DNA of 64,000 bases from Phaeodactylum tricornutum CCAP 1055/1 (taxonomy: Eukaryota; Bacillariophyta; Bacillariophyceae; Surirellales; Neidiaceae): the NCBI RefSeq assembly GCF_000150955.2, contig NC_011672.1, positions 1,178,001 through 1,242,000 on the forward strand, given 5' to 3'. The position numbers were made by a program, and so were the translations under genes. The notes beneath the pieces are model-generated. The model was not told the origin of the DNA. It did no database searches and saw only the letters and a program-made list of their open reading frames with translations. This document shows positions 20,002-42,616 of the stretch, piece after piece (position 1 is the stretch's first letter; each line of letters opens with the position of its first letter).

Positions 20002-21249
20002 TTATGCAAGGTTTCCACCGTTGGAGGAAAAATTGACGCTACCCTTCGTTAGCTTGGAGTGCAATACACCGGCGTAGACTGCCAATCCAATGGTTCCGAG
20101 AATAAAGAAACACAGGGCGAATTTTTGTCCGCCCGTTGTCGAATTGCCTCCGCCGATCGAGCTGGAGGCGCCTGATACAATGATCTCGCCCGACTCATCG
20201 TAAGTTCCAGATTTCAGGGATTGGACAAAGTCGCATACCACTTCTTCCTGTGCCAACTGGTTTTCGTATCCGTTGTAGTTGGAGACACCGTTGTTGAACC
20301 CATGTGTGGTTTCGCACTTGGCACCAGAGTTGTATAATGTCTCACACATTTCGATGACATCATCGGCGTCCTGCGCGTCGTTACCTTGGTCGTTGTTGTT
20401 GGCATTCTGGGGTTCCTTGCAGGAGATGCATGTGTCCATGTACGTCAATTTCAAAAGGGCGTGAGAGAGCTTCATTTGGGTTCCCTGTTCACTGACGAGA
20501 TAGTCATCGGGATCCTTACTAGCATCGAGGTCGGTACAGTACTGGTCCGTAAAGACACCAATCTTGATTTTGGACCCTTGACTGGCGCAGATGGGTCCGG
20601 CGTACAAGTCAGCAACGGAATCGTCCTGGGGACTGTAAATCAATTGGCACTCCAAAAAGTTGGTAGCATCCAGGTATCCATTGGTCTCCATGTTGGCAAT
20701 CTTCTGACATTCGGTGTAGCACGTAGAGCAGTCGACGTTGTAGTTCTGGTTGTTCTGGAGTTGGCGGCCGCCGTTGTTTTGATCGTCATTAGTATTCTGG
20801 CATTCGTTACACGTGTTGCACATTTCTTCCTGGTAGTCCTTCAAATATTCCACCGTAGCCTGTAGGTATGTATCGAGATCTACGAGGTATTCTCCGTAGT
20901 TGTAGTTACAGCTGCTACAGGCATTGTTGGGACAGAGGCGGAAAATGGCGAATCGCTTGGTCGCCAAAACGGTGGAAGCGTCCTCTTGTCCAGCAAGGTC
21001 CTCATCGAAGGATTTCACCAACTGGCATTGCTCGAACTTGACCGAGTATCCGGAAATGTCAATCTCGTAGTTCATATTCTGTCCGTTGTTCTGTTCGAGA
21101 CGACGAAGCTGTGAGTTGTTGGTGGGTACCGCCCCACGCATCAGCCTACCCACGTAAGCCGTTTGGGCTGCCCTCTCGCGATGTGCCGATGCCCAGGAGT
21201 TGGCCGAGACGGCGGCCACCAGAAACGAGAATGCGGCTAGCAGCTTCAT
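20002..21249 (-). CDS. Cysteine-rich single-pass membrane protein, family member A
   Basis: Single exon, 415 residues. Signal peptide 'MKLLAAFSFLVAAVSA', then a Cys-, Asn- and Asp-rich lumenal or extracellular domain, one transmembrane helix (about 380-402, 'FALCFFILGTIGLAVYAGVL') and a 15-20 residue basic and polar tail. It shares a fixed set of motifs with the genes at 22809 and 36303: 'GYSVKF..C', 'RLCP...C', 'YGEYLVDLDTYL', 'GPIC', 'GVFTDQYC', 'C.SC.EP', and a late 'CETLYNSGAKCE'. I know of no named family; the pattern of about 20 cysteines suggests disulfide bonding. This copy is the most divergent of the three, with extra CxxC pairs in the middle. It is divergently placed against member B across a 1.56 kb spacer. 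Confidence 0.85.
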   Translation of the reverse strand: MKLLAAFSFLVAAVSANSWASAHRERAAQTAYVGRLMRGAVPTNNSQLRRLEQNNGQNMNYEIDISGYSVKFEQCQLVKSFDEDLAGQEDASTVLATKRFAIFRLCPNNACSSCNYNYGEYLVDLDTYLQATVEYLKDYQEEMCNTCNECQNTNDDQNNGGRQLQNNQNYNVDCSTCYTECQKIANMETNGYLDATNFLECQLIYSPQDDSVADLYAGPICASQGSKIKIGVFTDQYCTDLDASKDPDDYLVSEQGTQMKLSHALLKLTYMDTCISCKEPQNANNNDQGNDAQDADDVIEMCETLYNSGAKCETTHGFNNGVSNYNGYENQLAQEEVVCDFVQSLKSGTYDESGEIIVSGASSSIGGGNSTTGGQKFALCFFILGTIGLAVYAGVLHSKLTKGSVNFSSNGGNLA

Positions 21250-22808
21250 GACGTTTATAGTCTACGACGATCAACGGCGGTTGAAAGAGGGAAAAAGAGA
21301 GTGAGTGTGAAACACCGTAAGTATTGACCAAGAATCACAATGGGACGCGTGAAAGTCAGGCTGGGAATGGTTTAACGACGACGACGACAAAAAACAACCA
21401 CGATCAGAATAGCGGACAGCGCTGCAAAGGTATTTCTGGCGAAAAACCTTTTACATCTAATGTAAATGCACTTCCAGCGCCATCCCTTTACACGGAAGTA
21501 GCATATCTTCCATCATCACGACTACACTGAACTAAACACTTGCTCCACCTTTCATCGTTGTGGTTTCCAACAAAAGGCTTGACAACCAAGCTAGTAACCG
21601 AAACGTACCTGCGGACTTGTGGGATCGCGATTCACACCAAACAAAAGGTGGTTCCTCGGCGGGATGCGGATGGGTCCGTATTGTTGGAGGCGGATGGATC
21701 GCTTGTGTTTCCCGCAGCGACAATCACAACAACACACGGAGATTGACAGAGAGCGTTGACTGCTTCGGAGACGGCAGGCTCCCCCAACGTGCTGAACCAA
21801 CTATCACTAGGAGGGGACAGCGAGAACGTTGGGCTCGCTAATGCTTGGATCAATTGGCTTCCTCACGACGGTAGATCTGAAATGTCCTTTTTCCTATTAA
21901 ATTTGTTTGCTGTTTCGTGTTCTCTAATACCGCTCTACTGTGACAATGTTAGATACAGACAGCTGATCGGAGTGATAGGTATTCGGAATCGCCTCCAATC
22001 GTTCTATGGAATTTTTGATATTTCGATAGACCAATGGAAAAGCCTCGAATCGGACTGCTCGCTAGCGAAGCCTTCGTCTCGCCCAAAGTGGGCACACTAC
22101 TCGCCCGCAGTCCGGTCTTTGCCCCCTTTTCTCTCCCGGAGCGCGCGCCAGCAAAGCAGGTTCGCCAAACCTGTTTTTAACGGTACCGTTACAACAGAGT
22201 CCTCGTGAGAGTGCAGAGTTTTGGGGGAAACCAACGTGCGAGCGGTCTGGAGAGTCACGATCACTGGCGATCTAGCGCGGGGCGTCTTTCTCGGAATCCC
22301 CACTCCTGGGCCCCTCTTTACGCTCACGTATCGTTGTCACTCCTCCTCGCCCACTGGCACATAGTATTGCTGGTGATCTCGTGTCGCGCACTCTAATTTC
22401 CAACCTTTTTTTTTAACTGAAAGGGGTCTACCGCAACCCGATCTGGTACGTGATACAGAAAACGCTCTTTGGTGCATTCGACGGTTTGCGAAAACGAGAC
22501 TCAGTCGGCGGGACGGATCATTCGCTCGCGACCAGGGCCGAGCGCGATCGGAAAAGGATGTGGAAACCGTCCGCTAATTCCGGCATACACTATTAGGCGA
22601 ACGAGAAAACCTGTACTCTCCGACCTCGCTCAATATCCTTGACCAATACATTCCAGCTGTTCGAAAGCATCACCTTGGCATGGATCGGCCGACACGATCT
22701 TGCTTTCGCGACCGCATGTTTCCTTGTCCTCACTTTTCATTTTGTCTCTTTTTTTTTTTCATTCACTCGCACAAACTAGCTTTTTTCACAGATTCAATCG
22801 CCACTATC
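21250..22808. promoter_or_regulatory. Divergent region between two cysteine-rich paralogues
   Basis: A 1559 bp spacer flanked by the starts of paralogues A (minus) and B (plus). A frame of 150 codons at 21756-22208 opens at TTG and has no recognisable features, so I do not call it. Poly-T tracts occur at about 22404-22414 and 22748-22760, the second just upstream of the B start. A shared control region is possible. Confidence 0.35.
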
Positions 22809-23969
22809 ATGAAATTGGCGCTTGCCCTGCTTTCCTACCTCGTAGTGTCGTTAGCCGCGCCGGTGGTGGTGGTGGTGGCGACGCCACAGCTTCACGAACT
22901 CGAGGACATTCCCGCCGACTCCACTCTGGGCATGAAACTGCTAGCCAACGCTCGTCAGCTGGACCAGAATAATGCGGCTTACGAAAGTACGTGGATCTCG
23001 GGATATTCCATCAAGTTTCAGGGATGTCACCACATCTCGCAATGGAACGAACAGGCCAACGGTAACGACGATGTCCGTATTGCTACCAAGCGTCTCGTGC
23101 GTTTCCGATTGTGTCCGACGGGCTCGTGCTCGAGCTCCTCCGCCAAGGGTTGCAGTGGAGGCTACGGTGACTACATTATTGATATGAACACGTACTTGGC
23201 TGCCTACATTGAAGCCAAGCAGGAGTATCAACAGTTCCGGTGCGATTACCTGTACAACTACGTCTGTCAATGCGACAACAATGGCGACGACAACTATTCC
23301 CAAGAAAAGTGCTTGTGGGATTGCTACGCGGGGCACAACATGGATGGAGTGTGTATGGAAAACAACCCTTACAACGCAAACAATGGTGGTAACAACGCAC
23401 AGCAATTCAACCTGGGGAATTACATGTATTGTGCACAAGCCAGCTTTAACGCAGCATACTACGTCGGACCGTACTGTGCTAGCCAGGGAGGGTCTATTTA
23501 CCTAGGCGTTTTTACCGATGACGCATGCACGACCTTTGCCGATAATTCGGGTGGACGAGAAACCTACTACCAGCTTGCTGGTGATGATCTACCCTACGGA
23601 AAAGCCAACCTCGTTGATATGGACTGTTTTAGTTGTCAAGAACCCGCCGAGAACAACAACGACGGAAACGATGCGCAAGATGCCGATACTGTGGCGGATG
23701 TTTGCGAAACAATCTACACCGCGGCCGGAAAATGCGAATCCAACCTGCCCTCTGGTACATCCTACTCACCTAACACCTCCGCCTGTAACTACATGGAGGG
23801 TATCAAAATTGTACGCAAGGATGGGACCGTTGTTACTGCTGAGGCTAAGGCCAACAAGACTGCTTCTGTTTTTATTGGTCTCTTTATTGTGGCATTCGTT
23901 CTGCTGTCGGCGTACGTTTACTACCTCAAGACTAAGCTGGACCGGGCGTCTATCAATCTGGCAGAGTAA
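22809..23969 (+). CDS. Cysteine-rich single-pass membrane protein, family member B
   Basis: Single exon; the ATG at 22809 starts an evident signal peptide ('MKLALALLSYLVVSLAA') and is preferred over the longer open frame upstream, which would bury it. The protein is 386 residues: a lumenal Cys/Asn/Asp-rich domain, a transmembrane helix near 347-370 ('VFIGLFIVAFVLLSAYVYYL') and a short tail beginning 'KTKLDR'. It carries all family motifs: 'GYSIKFQGC', 'RFRLCPTGSC', 'YGDYIIDMNTYL', 'GPYCASQGGSIYLGVFTDD', 'C.SCQEP', 'CETIYTAAGKCE' and 'ACNYMEGIK'. It is much closer to member C than to A. Role unknown; location in the endomembrane system or cell surface is inferred from signal peptide and anchor. 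It converges on the protease gene with a 125 bp gap. Confidence 0.88.
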   Translation: MKLALALLSYLVVSLAAPVVVVVATPQLHELEDIPADSTLGMKLLANARQLDQNNAAYESTWISGYSIKFQGCHHISQWNEQANGNDDVRIATKRLVRFRLCPTGSCSSSSAKGCSGGYGDYIIDMNTYLAAYIEAKQEYQQFRCDYLYNYVCQCDNNGDDNYSQEKCLWDCYAGHNMDGVCMENNPYNANNGGNNAQQFNLGNYMYCAQASFNAAYYVGPYCASQGGSIYLGVFTDDACTTFADNSGGRETYYQLAGDDLPYGKANLVDMDCFSCQEPAENNNDGNDAQDADTVADVCETIYTAAGKCESNLPSGTSYSPNTSACNYMEGIKIVRKDGTVVTAEAKANKTASVFIGLFIVAFVLLSAYVYYLKTKLDRASINLAE

Positions 23970-36302: not shown

Positions 36303-37502
36303 ATGAAGTTTCGCATTCTTGTTTTACTACTAGTTCCTCTGTTTTCGTTGGCGAGAGCCGTGCCGGAAATTTCCGTCGAGTCCGACCTTGGCCAGCATCT
36401 CTTGGCCAACGCGCGTCGCGTACAAGAGGGCGAGAACAACAACAACAACAACGAAGCAATCACGTTCGAATGGGTTGCGGGTTATTCCGTCAAGTTTCAG
36501 GGTTGTCATGTTGTGAAGCAGTGGAACGACAACGCCAATAACGAAAACGATGTCCGCATTAGCTCCCAAGGACTCGTCCGTTTCCGTCTCTGTCCCAGCT
36601 CACAGTGCTCCGCCAACAAGGCATCGGGCTGCTCCAAAGGATACGGAGACTATGTGATCGGTATGAGCGAATTCCTGAGTTCCTTTTATGAAGCCAAGAG
36701 TCGCGAAATAGAATACGATTGTCAGTACTACTTGCAGAATAAGTGCAGTTGCCAGGACACCGATGACAAGGACGATGGCTTCAATGCCGACTATTGCGAG
36801 TACGATTGCTTCAATAACAGTGGCATGACTGAGTGTGTGGATCGTAACCCGTACCAAGACGATGGACAAAATCAGAACCAACAGTTTAACCTTGAAAACT
36901 ACATGCAATGCACCGCGGTTCGTCTAAACAACAACAATAATGGCGGTGGTGGACAGCGTGTACTTGAACAAAATGGAGCCTCTTACTATGTTGGACCGTA
37001 CTGTTCCGAAAAAGGTGGATCTATTTATTTGGGTCTTTTTACAGATGACTCATGTACCAATGCTGCCACAGACACAACCTTCCAGACTCTGGTCGGTTTC
37101 GAACTACCCTACTCGACTTCATCCATCGTAGGAGCCGATTGCGTCTCTTGTCTCGAACGAGAATACAACCAACAAGATGACCAGAATAACCAAGCTGACG
37201 CGAATGATGCGGCCGACATCGACGCCGTTTCGGAATCCTGTGAGACTCTCTACCAGAATGCCGGCAAGTGCGAGAACAGCCTGGCTTCCGGTATAGTTGA
37301 TGACCCCAATACAAGCGCATGTACCTACATGGAAGGCATTCGGGTCGTTCGTCAAGACGGAATCATCGACACCGGTTCGTCTCGTTCTTCGGCCGTAGCA
37401 ACGGCCTTGATTGTCATTTTTGCCATGGCTTTTTGTGCAATGGCTTTTTACGTCTGGTATCTACGTACCCGTCTGGGTGTCAAGCAGAATACTCTACTGT
37501 AA
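36303..37502 (+). CDS. Cysteine-rich single-pass membrane protein, family member C
   Basis: Single exon, 399 residues. Signal peptide 'MKFRILVLLLVPLFSLARA', a Cys/Asn/Asp-rich lumenal domain with Asn runs (around 42-50 and 214-219), a transmembrane helix near 364-386 and a short tail beginning 'RTRLG'. It matches member B along its whole length: 'GYSVKFQGCH', 'RFRLCPSSQC', 'GYGDYVIGMSEFL', 'GPYCSEKGGSIYLGLFTDD', 'C.SCLE', 'CETLYQNAGKCE' and 'ACTYMEGIR'. It is 12 kb from B with unrelated genes between, so a simple tandem duplication is no longer visible. Function unknown; see member A for family features. Confidence 0.88.
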   Translation: MKFRILVLLLVPLFSLARAVPEISVESDLGQHLLANARRVQEGENNNNNNEAITFEWVAGYSVKFQGCHVVKQWNDNANNENDVRISSQGLVRFRLCPSSQCSANKASGCSKGYGDYVIGMSEFLSSFYEAKSREIEYDCQYYLQNKCSCQDTDDKDDGFNADYCEYDCFNNSGMTECVDRNPYQDDGQNQNQQFNLENYMQCTAVRLNNNNNGGGGQRVLEQNGASYYVGPYCSEKGGSIYLGLFTDDSCTNAATDTTFQTLVGFELPYSTSSIVGADCVSCLEREYNQQDDQNNQADANDAADIDAVSESCETLYQNAGKCENSLASGIVDDPNTSACTYMEGIRVVRQDGIIDTGSSRSSAVATALIVIFAMAFCAMAFYVWYLRTRLGVKQNTLL

Positions 37503-37888: not shown

Positions 37889-39818
37889 ATGTCGACCGGA
37901 ACCAGTACCGATCTGTCCTTTCTTTTTCGAGACAAGCGTGTCGAGGTCACCTATTCTGCAGGAGTTAGGGAACAGGAAGCTGTCCTAGCGGTCAACAGTG
38001 AGCCGTTCAAGACGTGGTACCGCAGATGTGAAGAAGAGCTCGATAAGAAGCGCATCGAAATCCATTCGGTAGAAATCCAGAGTGTCGACGTGTTTGGAAC
38101 AAGGTGCGTTCTACTAATCCTTACTCTGTAAGGGTCCTCTGGATATTTAAATCAGCTCACAGAAGATGGACTTGCCGTCGTGCAGGGGCGTTGGTTTTAT
38201 CAAAATCAAGTCCCATTGTACCTTGTTTGACGGTGAAACGCATCATGAGCATCGACTGCCCGGCATTTGCTTTCTGAGGGGAAATGCGGTCTCTATTTTT
38301 GTGGCACTGTACTGTGAAGATGGATCGGTTCATTCTTTGCTCGTTGACCAGCCACGAATTCCCATTGGACGCGTGTCCTGTCTTGAAGTACCTGCGGGAA
38401 TGCTGGACGACGAAAGTGAAACTGTGGCCGGAATCGCTGTGAAAGAGATGGAAGAAGAATGCGGTATCAAGATCAAGGTATGTGTTTAGAAGGTCCCGAT
38501 ATGCGCATACAAAGAGCACAATCCTGGTATACTCACTGCTTACTGTCGCATTTGGGAAGCCTTCACACCTTGTCGACCTCACTGAGCTTGCCTTTGACGA
38601 TGCTTTCAAGGCAGGTCGTATTCCAATGATGGCTGTAGCCCCATCGCCAGGTGGCTGTGACGAGTTTTGCCGCCTTATGTATCTGGAAAAGAAAGCAACG
38701 AAGCAAGAGCTGGAAGACATGAAAGGCCGGCTTTCTGGTCTCAGAGAACACGGCGAATTTATTACGCTCTCGGTGGTTCCAATGGATCAAGTATGGAGGG
38801 TTTCGGCAGACGCAAAAGCTATGATGTAAGCAAGGATATCACGATATACACCAAACAAGCATTTCAAAAATACTCACAAACTGTTTTGCACATTAGGTCA
38901 CTCTTCCTCATTGAGCAGCTTCGTCGCGACGGTAAGCTTCCCGCTCCTGGAGAGCTTGCGACATCTCTTACGGAATCTGAAGCTATCCTACATCTTCCCT
39001 GTGGTACACCGATACCGCAATTGGCATTTGGATTGTACAAGGTCCCGGATACTAAGGAAGGCGAAGAGGCCATCGTACAGGCGATAGAGGCGGGTTATCG
39101 CCATTTTGATGGAGCATCCTTCTACAAAAACGAAGCGACGTTCGGTCGAGCTCTTAGAAGCAGCGGCATAGCAAGAACAGAATTCTTCATCACTGGCAAA
39201 GTATGGAACGATGCGGTCAAAAGCGGTCGACACGCGGTCCGTGAAAGCGTCGAGACTAGTCTAGTTGACATAGGATGCGATTATTTCGATCTCTTCCTTG
39301 TCCACTGGCCGGTCCCCGGGCATTTTTGTGAGGCCTATCATGAATTAGAGGTCCTTCATAAAGAGGGAAAAATCAAAAGCCTTGGAATTTCGAACTTTAA
39401 TGAAAAAGAATATGAAGAATTAGTTCGAACCGGCATTAGTGTCCTTCCGGTGTGCAATCAGATGGAGATTTCACCGGTAATGTACAGAAAAGAAATGGTG
39501 AGCTTTTTCCAGCAGCGCAATATACTTGTTGCGGCGTACAAGCCTCTCCAGCGGGCAGCAGCATTCGACCGACCAGTCATTTTAGAGATTGCCAAAAAAC
39601 ACAGGGTAACACCTGGGCAAGTAATGTTGAGATGGGGCCTCCAAAAGAGGTTGATTGTTGCATCAAAGACCATGCACCCTGATCGTATGCGTGAAAATCG
39701 CGATGTACTGGATTTTGGACTAACTTCTGACGACATGATGCGGCTCGATGCTTTGACCACGGATCGAGACCTTCAAGAAAGAGAAAAAAATGACATAAAG
39801 GAGAAAGCAAGTCTTTGA
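37889..39818 (+). CDS. Nudix ADP-sugar pyrophosphatase fused to aldo-keto reductase
   Basis: Four exons: 37889-38103, 38186-38477, 38560-38825 and 38897-39818. Introns are 82, 82 and 71 bp and phases sum to 565 codons including the stop. Residues 1 to about 275 resemble plant ADP-sugar pyrophosphatase NUDX14: 'QSVDVFGTR', 'GVGFIKIK', 'LEVPAGMLDD' and the Nudix box ending 'KEMEEECGI' (143-166; Lys replaces the usual Arg), then 'PSPGGCDE', 'GLREHGEFI' and 'DAKAMMSLFLIEQL'. From about 290 the protein is an aldo-keto reductase with its full tetrad: Asp 329, Tyr 334 ('HFDGASFY'), Lys 359 ('ITGKVW') and His 394 ('LVHWPVP'), plus 'LGISNFNE' and the cofactor end 'IVASKTMHPDRM'. The intron 2 acceptor (GGGAAG) is weak but is the only one that keeps 'VDLTELAFDD' in frame. 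A joint role in nucleotide-sugar and carbonyl metabolism is inference. Convergent with a kinase gene 68 bp away. Confidence 0.88.
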
Positions 39819-39886: not shown

Positions 39887-41929
39887 TTAGTTTGCTCCGA
39901 ATGAAATACGAACGGGTGGAGCGGTGCGCTTCTCTTTTTCAGAGTCTAAGGCGGCTTTGATGCCGAATATGGCTTTCGAGACGGCCAGGAGGTCGAGTCG
40001 ATCTCCTGTCAAGAATTTCCGCTTTTTTGAAAGCGGATGGCTACTAGGCATCCCTATTTCGTGTTCCACTTCAAAGAAACATTCACGTTTTTGAAAGTTG
40101 TCGAACGCGTGCGCCCATTCCTGACACTTTGTCAGACAGACTACATATTTCTGTCGTCGAAAGCCATCCGTCGCTGTACGATGACCGCCGTCCTCAAACC
40201 GTTTTGCGTCCCAGTCATCATACAACAGAGTCTGTGCGGCCATCAACCAGTCTCGCAAGACCAAATGAACGGACACGTCTCTAGCATGGTCTACATCATA
40301 TTGAATTTGTGCGAAACGGAACCGCCATTCCAGAGGCAGTCGGTCCATTTCGCCTACTGTCTCATCCGCAAGCATTTCTAAGTTCGTGGAATTTTCGATC
40401 GTTTGAAACAAATCCATGTCCAACGGATCCGCTTGATCGGCAGTATCTCCGTGCGCGGCATTAGAATCGAAACCTCTCATCGGTTCCCGTATGGGTGACG
40501 TTGAAGGGATGGTTTTCCATTCAATAGGTCTCGCTGGTGGATGGTTTGTAGGGTCTTCCAGGAATCCGTGTATACAATCACGAACATAAGCATAGTCGGG
40601 TTGATCTGTAAAGCCCAGTTGACCCACGTGCCGAAAGGCTCTTCGTAGACAGTCCACCTTCTTCTCGTCTTGACTTAACGATAATGGTGTCGGAAGATTA
40701 ATCAGCTTTTGCTCCCCTACCGCCTCTTGTTTCTCGCGGCGAAATTTCATGACGTGGTACTCGTCGCCCATAAGTAGTTGCTCAGTCTGATCAGCGCCGT
40801 CTCCAGCGTCGCCGTGGATGCGTTCCTTGAGTGTTTGGCACATGGGACGATCACGATTGGCAGCGTGTGACATCCAGGGTAATCCCCCGCTGACCAAATC
40901 ACAAAAGACGTAAAGTAGACTCCATACGTCATCCCTCGGTGCGTAGTCCTTGCCCTGGTGTACGCGCAGACTAGCGTACATGCTGGTACCGCGAAATTCT
41001 GCCTTTTCGCGTTCGAGCCGGTAAAAACCCGCGCCTTGATGGTTGCAGGGTTGCAACCATTGCGAATGAGGCCAGGTGTGGTCCTTGTCCGCCAAAGGCG
41101 AATCTTCCGGTACGACGATACTTTTGCTCAATCCAAAATCAACAATGCAAAAGTCCCGTTCGCCTGTCGACCGCACGCAATTGCTGGGTTTGACATCACG
41201 GTGGACGACACCAGCTTCGTGCATGCGCTGCAACAAAGGCAACATAACGTCAGCCGCGAGGTATACCGCGTCTGGAACCGTGACGCGACGGGACTGCGAT
41301 CCCGTCATGACCTTTTCACGCAAGTGGTGCATATCTTGTCCGGGAAGGTACTCCATGACAATTGCCGCGTACGGACCGCTTTTATAATGGCCGAGATACC
41401 GAGGTACCGTACCGGGAAGAAGCGTTCGACTAAGATAGTGAAGTATGGTTGCTTCTGCTTCCAGTACGCCGGACTGTACAAAGTTACGGAGTTCTACTTT
41501 GGCGACGGCTACTCGAGGTTTCGCTAGGCGAGGAACTTCCGCAGCAGCGCCCGCTTTTGTGTGAAAGTGTTCCATATTGACACATTTGTGTATACTCGAA
41601 AAGGTTCCTTTGCCGATTTCTTGAAAGAGAAAATAGGGACCGAGCTGACTGCCCGCATTGGGAAACGATCCCGACGTGCTTACATGGGATACGCGGCCGT
41701 ATACGGCGTGTTGTTGCGCCGGCGCCCCCGCAGTGGATCGTCTCCGCCGTTCCGAGGTTGCATCGGGCGCCGTGCTATTGACGGGCGTTAAGTGACGACT
41801 ACGATAGCCACCGTCTAGTTCCACGGCTCCACCTTCCGAAAAGGAAGGATTACTCGCTACAATGGGTGCGGCGCTACCGTTGGGCGTCATCGTCGTTTCC
41901 GTTGGTACTTTGTGCGGAGCGCTTTCCAT
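39887..41929 (-). CDS. Protein kinase, CK1/tau-tubulin-kinase-like
   Basis: 680 residues from the ATG at 41929; the frame is open 135 codons further upstream but contains no ATG. Residues 1-85 are polar. The kinase domain begins at 'LGPYFLFQEIGKGTFSSIH' (Gly-loop), has the Lys in 'VAVAKVE', the catalytic loop 'VVHRDVKPSNC', 'DFGLSKS', and 'YASLRVHQGKDYAPRDDVWS' in place of the usual APE segment, as in CK1 and tau-tubulin kinases. The remaining 250 residues are a variable C-terminal region with few features. The kinase should be active since all key residues are present. CK1/TTBK subfamily is inferred from the substrate-lobe pattern. Confidence 0.85.
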   Translation of the reverse strand: MESAPHKVPTETTMTPNGSAAPIVASNPSFSEGGAVELDGGYRSRHLTPVNSTAPDATSERRRRSTAGAPAQQHAVYGRVSHVSTSGSFPNAGSQLGPYFLFQEIGKGTFSSIHKCVNMEHFHTKAGAAAEVPRLAKPRVAVAKVELRNFVQSGVLEAEATILHYLSRTLLPGTVPRYLGHYKSGPYAAIVMEYLPGQDMHHLREKVMTGSQSRRVTVPDAVYLAADVMLPLLQRMHEAGVVHRDVKPSNCVRSTGERDFCIVDFGLSKSIVVPEDSPLADKDHTWPHSQWLQPCNHQGAGFYRLEREKAEFRGTSMYASLRVHQGKDYAPRDDVWSLLYVFCDLVSGGLPWMSHAANRDRPMCQTLKERIHGDAGDGADQTEQLLMGDEYHVMKFRREKQEAVGEQKLINLPTPLSLSQDEKKVDCLRRAFRHVGQLGFTDQPDYAYVRDCIHGFLEDPTNHPPARPIEWKTIPSTSPIREPMRGFDSNAAHGDTADQADPLDMDLFQTIENSTNLEMLADETVGEMDRLPLEWRFRFAQIQYDVDHARDVSVHLVLRDWLMAAQTLLYDDWDAKRFEDGGHRTATDGFRRQKYVVCLTKCQEWAHAFDNFQKRECFFEVEHEIGMPSSHPLSKKRKFLTGDRLDLLAVSKAIFGIKAALDSEKEKRTAPPVRISFGAN

Positions 41930-42616
41930 TGTTGACGTCGAAGCTCGACTATATTCAATGGAAACGATATTCTGCTGTCCTATACTACAACGCAAAGAAG
42001 TAACAGTAAGATGCCCTTTTGCAAGACAGAGATGAGAGAGCGCTGTCCCGGCGTGCCTTCTTTTACCTTCGTGCGTGCCTGGACTGTGAGATTGGTATGG
42101 CTGCCGTTGATTCGGAAGGGTCGCATGTAGCCCTGCCCTAGTTAGCAGACTTAATCGGTAGAAAATAAGTCTGTCCGTCTGACTGTCAATCAGTTGTACG
42201 AGGCGAAGATAGTGGATATAGAGGACTGTGCGGTATGCAAGATAGATAACCGTACGTAATTCGGAGGTACGGCCTTGACTGCACCCGTATTGTGCAATGC
42301 TCGTTGTTTCCGCCGAGCAAACTGGTGACACCACGTGAACGAGAGACGATCATCCTTCTTCATCTTATGTCTACCAATTGATGTGAGATTAAATCTGTGT
42401 ACATCACTTATACCGGTTACGGAGCGCCGCAAAACTAAAGATCTACACCCGCAAAAACAAAAAAGGGGTCCTCCCGCTCGATTGGAAGGGGACCATCTTG
42501 TGTAGAAGATTCTGAATAGCGCCAACGCGACTCGTGAGTATATCCTTTTCGTGTCTAGACCAAAACCAAAACCGCTTGCTCTATCATGCCTTGGCTCTTG
42601 TTATAGTTAACATCGT
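41930..42616. other. Intergenic 5' of the kinase gene
   Basis: 687 bp between the kinase start and the end of the small gene. An ACTGTCAATCAG copy lies at 42182-42193, about 250 bp before the kinase start. Nothing else is recognised. Confidence 0.35.

Follow-up and report, generated by a model that had tools for sequence, protein, structure and literature searches.

The window, a stretch of 64,000 nucleotides from contig 4 (positions 1178001-1242000) of the Phaeodactylum tricornutum genome assembly (27,450,724 bases, 88 contigs), contains on its plus strand a four-exon gene at positions 37889-39818, with a spliced frame of 1695 nt including the stop codon that encodes 564 amino acids. Both ends are exact, with the ATG at 37889 and the stop codon finishing at 39818. 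The gene comprises (i) exon 1 (37889-38103), which encodes the N-terminal part of a Nudix domain, covering residues 1-71 plus two bases of codon 72, and has a coding score of 12.7 in its own frame, as computed with a codon table derived from 42 long open frames of the genome found mechanically; (ii) exon 2 (38186-38477), which encodes the Nudix core, including the Nudix box within residues 142-166 and the glutamates E159, E162 and E163 at 38445-38459; (iii) exon 3 (38560-38825), which carries the remainder of the Nudix fold and extends into codon 258; and (iv) exon 4 (38897-39818), which encodes the Nudix tail, a linker and an aldo-keto reductase (AKR), and ends in the stop codon TGA (39816-39818).

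The three introns, which are probably removed by splicing in the cell, lie on the plus strand and display GT-AG ends, with intron 1 (38104-38185) and intron 2 (38478-38559) of 82 nt each, in phases 2 and 0, respectively, and intron 3 (38826-38896) of 71 nt in phase 2, with a GC content of 33.8% versus 47-50% in the exons. The donors read AAG/GTGCGT, AAG/GTATGT and GAT/GTAAGC, and more than 99.8% of the introns of P. tricornutum are reported to be canonical (PMC5859163). The compatibility of the splice phases across all three introns, as proposed in an earlier sequence-only reading of this DNA, is borne out by the 564-residue open frame. Nevertheless, the open frame alone does not single out the gene model, since the frame stays open with 30 combinations of donors and acceptors for introns 2 and 3 when intron 1 is kept as modeled, and with 17 when intron 1 is varied by itself. 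The sites were selected by their appearance and by the fit of the product to Nudix relatives, the latter deciding the acceptor of intron 2; the alignment with bacterial Nudix relatives runs gapless over the intron 2 junction and shows a one-residue offset near intron 1.

The N-terminal half belongs to the Nudix hydrolase superfamily according to the curated Pfam cut-off, with the NUDIX profile matching residues 107-247 of the spliced protein with a weak score of 24.1 bits versus a cut-off of 21.1. Only the spliced protein yields this match, and an exon-by-exon search of the whole genome with the same profile returned 19 matches, the fusion gene not among them. Compared with the reported Nudix box consensus GX5EX7REUXEEXGU (PMC2707057), the E-U-X-E-E-X-G-U part is preserved, including E159, E162 and E163, whereas a lysine (K158) replaces the arginine and one extra residue is inserted between the glycine and the first glutamate. 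The three glutamates are invariant in an alignment of eight sequences, comprising the diatom protein and seven bacterial relatives.

The sequence-only reading had described this half as an ADP-sugar pyrophosphatase, a claim supported only as far as the group. When searched alone against the PDB, the Nudix half recovered no chain at E<=0.001 and 29 chains at E<=10, led by ADP-sugar pyrophosphatase labels (3ac9, E=0.0013; a NUDT5 entry, E=0.0015), the best solved relatives with ADP-sugar pyrophosphatase/NUDT5 labels spanning E-values of 0.0013-0.002. A profile including the seven bacterial relatives matched 48 distinct PDB sequences at E<=0.01, headed by the MutT/nudix chain 2yvm (9.8e-8) and Nudix hydrolase 1 (3.3e-7), followed by ADP-sugar pyrophosphatases from 3.7e-7 and ADP-ribose pyrophosphatases from 6.2e-7, with other Nudix types intermixed; these two pyrophosphatase groups span 3.7e-7 to 1.9e-5, with one chain at 0.0061. 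On the other hand, the more specific assignment falls short, the score against TIGR00052, which describes the YffH/AdpP ADP-sugar diphosphatase group, being 22.8 bits for the Nudix half and 20.2 bits for the whole protein against a cut-off of 79.55. Although all eight members of the Nudix alignment match TIGR00052 at E<=0.001, the score lies so far below the cut-off that the Nudix half is best filed as nearest to this group and not as a member of it. The solved ADP-sugar and ADP-ribose pyrophosphatases, such as NUDT5 and the bacterial ADP-ribose pyrophosphatases, resemble the diatom protein in the region of the Nudix box, around which they mainly align, whereas the longer core of the fusion is shared with the bacterial relatives instead and, in addition, the diatom protein has an AKR attached. 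The Nudix half may resemble plant NUDX14. The profile matches make ADP-ribose or other ADP-sugars the likely, but not settled, substrate group. AtNUDX14 is reported to hydrolyze both ADP-glucose and ADP-ribose (PMC9773146).

The first part of exon 4 (38897-38945, about residues 259-274) likely encodes the last Nudix helix. The bacterial Nudix relatives run on into a C-terminal helix, and the counterpart in the diatom protein, a weak match, lies 3' of intron 3; for 16 of the 21 relatives aligned pairwise, the match extends past residue 258 and, thus, past the intron. The 18-residue tail encoded by exon 4 raises the Nudix profile score from 93.2 to 97.0 bits, a gain of 3.8 bits, compared with a mean of 94.4 bits (a gain of 1.2 bits) for shuffled tails, of which 48 out of 2000 reached 97.0 bits, while 8 of 281 other 18-residue windows of exon 4 outscored the tail. 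The earlier proposal that this helix opens exon 4 is therefore favored by the alignments and the profile, but weakly, given the shuffled tails and alternative windows that match or exceed the score. A short linker follows (38946-38984, about residues 275-287), with approximate borders.

The C-terminal half (38985-39815, residues 288-564) is a complete AKR, as the sequence-only reading had it, with the Pfam Aldo_ket_red profile matched almost in full (positions 15-289 of 291) by residues 307-544 with a score of 143.8 bits versus a cut-off of 24. Asp329, Tyr334, Lys359 and His394 are present at the motif positions, together with K515, T516, R521, E524 and N525, which we take to be the Asp-Tyr-Lys-His catalytic tetrad and the residues of the coenzyme loop, respectively. 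At E<=0.001 this half matches 188 distinct sequences of solved chains, the best of which are 3b3d (7e-59) and chains of YvgN (2.7e-56 and 3.1e-56), followed by a prostaglandin F synthase, and the full-length match to 3b3d predicts an (α/β)8 barrel fold. The reductases YvgN, the prostaglandin F synthases and the 2,5-diketogluconate reductases, presumably of the AKR5-like type to which we also assign the diatom domain, share with it the full-length match, the tetrad and the coenzyme loop; unlike the fusion, they are not joined to a Nudix domain, and the scores of the AKR half against the equivalog models of DkgA (NF008598; 206.6 versus 425 bits) and DkgB (160.6 versus 327 bits) lie under half of the respective cut-offs. 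Both Pfam domains thus exceed their cut-offs within one continuous spliced genomic frame, which upholds the central claim of the earlier reading. As read from the genomic DNA, the fusion is confirmed, and the gene appears to encode one protein built from two complete enzymes that usually occur apart, a pairing that looks unusual and is seen in one genome.

The two halves differ in their distribution. Within the P. tricornutum genome, a search for a second copy of the Nudix half returned none, all four matches at E<=10 being exons of the fusion gene itself, while the AKR half matched 10 other genome segments at E<=0.001. The nearest of these AKRs, on the minus strand of contig 64 (L033:1405-2529), is about 38.6-42% identical and comprises a stand-alone frame of 374 residues with, by eye, a signal-like N-terminal extension; it also displays a glutamate in place of the tetrad aspartate (LECAEFY compared to FDGASFY in the fusion). 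The activity of this contig 64 enzyme may differ.

In a single bacterial family, 75 of the 101 genomes searched carry relatives of the Nudix half at E<=1e-5, giving 83 matches in total, with two matches in eight of the genomes; in a wider sample of the phylum, 1 of 198 genomes has such a relative, so these Nudix proteins are common in the former and rare in the latter. The open frames that contain the 83 matches measure 218-297 residues, too short to accommodate a fused AKR, and a bacterial ancestor of the fusion is consequently rejected within the genomes searched (0/83 Nudix frames longer than 297 residues). The 21 loci selected for alignment (L043-L063) display 26-32% BLAST identity over most of the Nudix half, a profile built from them matches residues 37-263 of the fusion with 93.7 bits, and their flanks yielded no AKR by BLAST at E<=1. 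Of the two genomes with the distant AKRs recovered by peptide pattern (see below), one also contains a weak Nudix match (E 0.006). Scans with six exact peptide patterns for each half gave, for the Nudix half, 29 matches in a collection of genome contigs and 5 in viral contigs, none confirmed in either, and, for the AKR half, 298 matches in the genome contigs, yielding 2 distant bacterial AKRs, and 11 in viral contigs, none confirmed; patterns of this kind do not make strong negatives. Most simply, the fusion would have arisen when a stand-alone AKR gene became attached to the end of a Nudix gene.

The sequence-only reading knew of no characterized enzyme with the Nudix-then-AKR order, which literature searches among open-access papers, outside which most subscription journals fall, do not contradict, no Nudix-AKR fusion being found in the titles, abstract openings and passages covered. 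Neither Nudix nor aldo-keto reductase is mentioned in the main text of a survey of oomycete and diatom fusions (PMC2705460) or in that of the Phatr3 paper, whose supplement lists merged gene models (PMC5859163). Likewise, a review of the Nudix clan (PMC5389931) does not mention aldo-keto reductases, and an expression study in Pseudo-nitzschia that includes an aldo-keto reductase (PMC3832940) does not mention Nudix. The TPI-GAPDH fusion similarly comprises two complete enzymes arranged head to tail in a diatom, but it joins neighboring glycolytic steps, is mitochondrial and, as reported, is widespread in stramenopiles (PMC3527533), none of these traits being known for the Nudix-AKR fusion, which is seen here in one genome. 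Two-enzyme fusions as such are thus known in diatoms, and what is new is the combination of two known enzyme families, Nudix and AKR.

The reading that we favor, with roughly even confidence, is that of a bifunctional Nudix-AKR enzyme of 564 residues, probably cytosolic, in which the two sites would work in parallel as a metabolite clean-up pair. The Nudix half would split ADP-ribose or another ADP-sugar into AMP and a sugar phosphate, with the metal held by E159, E162 and E163, whereas the AKR half would use NADPH and its Asp-Tyr-Lys-His tetrad to reduce reactive aldehydes, e.g., methylglyoxal or small sugars. The sites would act side by side, the gain from the fusion being shared expression and dosage and not product transfer. 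By eye, a targeting sequence is not evident at the N-terminus. To our knowledge, diatoms do not store starch made from ADP-glucose, which makes ADP-ribose the likelier substrate of the two. Both free ADP-ribose and methylglyoxal are protein-modifying compounds, and a shared clean-up role is for this reason the plainest reading.

The alternative suggested by the sequence-only reading, that the two sites act on successive products, depends on the Nudix product retaining a free aldehyde. Glucose 1-phosphate has none, so sequential action fails for ADP-glucose; ADP-ribose, by contrast, gives ribose 5-phosphate, which has a free aldehyde, and for this substrate the proposal is chemically possible. 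In this scheme, the Nudix half would cleave ADP-ribose to free ribose 5-phosphate, the aldehyde of which would be reduced by the AKR half to give ribitol 5-phosphate; a similar sugar might likewise be converted into its alcohol. Domain fusions often join successive steps, as exemplified in P. tricornutum by the reported TPI-GAPDH (PMC3527533). In addition, 2,5-diketogluconate reductases and a prostaglandin F synthase/D-arabinose dehydrogenase chain are among the closest AKRs, and such enzymes act on sugars or small carbonyls. However, AKR5-type enzymes are broad in their substrates, ribose 5-phosphate is mostly ring-closed and the ADP-glucose route lacks both a known starch in diatoms and a product with a free aldehyde, and we regard sequential action as unlikely.

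One of the halves might also be non-catalytic, with the Nudix half serving as an ADP-ribose sensor or as an anchor for the AKR, a reading that we consider quite unlikely. The deviations of the box from the consensus, i.e., the extra residue and the lysine for arginine, would agree with such a role, and non-catalytic Nudix domains are reported to occur typically in multidomain proteins (PMC5389931). In opposition, the three glutamates are kept, and the same deviations recur among the 21 bacterial relatives, with the lysine in one (L043), the 24-residue box that results from the extra residue in another (L063), and glutamine or methionine at the arginine position elsewhere. Since this position is occupied by R, K, Q or M in these relatives, K158 is no argument against activity of the diatom enzyme.

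A further alternative concerns the gene structure, and proposes two overlapping genes in which intron 3 is usually retained, so that translation of the Nudix protein ends after residue 258 at the TAA at 38827-38829, and the AKR is produced separately from an ATG at 38793 in another frame. The AKR frame is indeed open from 38661 through intron 3, with the ATG at 38793 in frame, and P. tricornutum reportedly shows prominent intron retention (PMC5859163). The coding score of intron 3 in the AKR frame is slightly positive (5.3), and coding statistics alone therefore neither exclude an unspliced AKR frame nor show the intron. However, the coding signal changes frame between exon 3, where it lies in frame 1, and exon 4, where it lies in frame 0, and over 38690-38825 the AKR frame scores -4.2 versus 11.1 for the Nudix frame; moreover, the separate Nudix protein would lack its likely last helix, and intron 3 has the GT-AG ends and the low GC content described above. 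Altogether, two overlapping genes are distinctly unlikely. A misjoined pair of neighbors, with an AKR starting at an ATG of exon 4, is rejected for ATG starts, because codons 259-446 contain no ATG and the first one in the exon, M447 at 39462, lies beyond all four tetrad residues, so that an AKR begun there would lose the entire tetrad. Finally, a first bifunctional Nudix-AKR enzyme that splits ADP-ribose and reduces the ribose 5-phosphate to a polyol phosphate, with retention of intron 3 as a switch to a Nudix-only form, is very unlikely.

Natural fusions hint at which enzymes share a purpose, and this one would tie the turnover of ADP-ribose or ADP-sugars to carbonyl reduction in a genetically tractable diatom; if the fusion were confined to one species, or never present as one RNA, it would have little import beyond the correction of a gene model.

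The window contains other frames in the surroundings of the fusion gene. A protein kinase-like frame with the motifs HRDVKPSN and DFGLSKS occupies 39887-42334 on the minus strand, in tail-to-tail orientation relative to the fusion gene, with 68 bases separating the two stop codons. Three similar long frames, at 20002-21249 (minus strand), 22680-23969 (plus strand) and 36303-37502 (plus strand), appear by eye to encode secreted Asn-rich proteins, and share a C-terminal hydrophobic stretch and the motifs GYS[VI]KF, CxSC and CET[LI]Y, resembling, again by eye, a local gene family.
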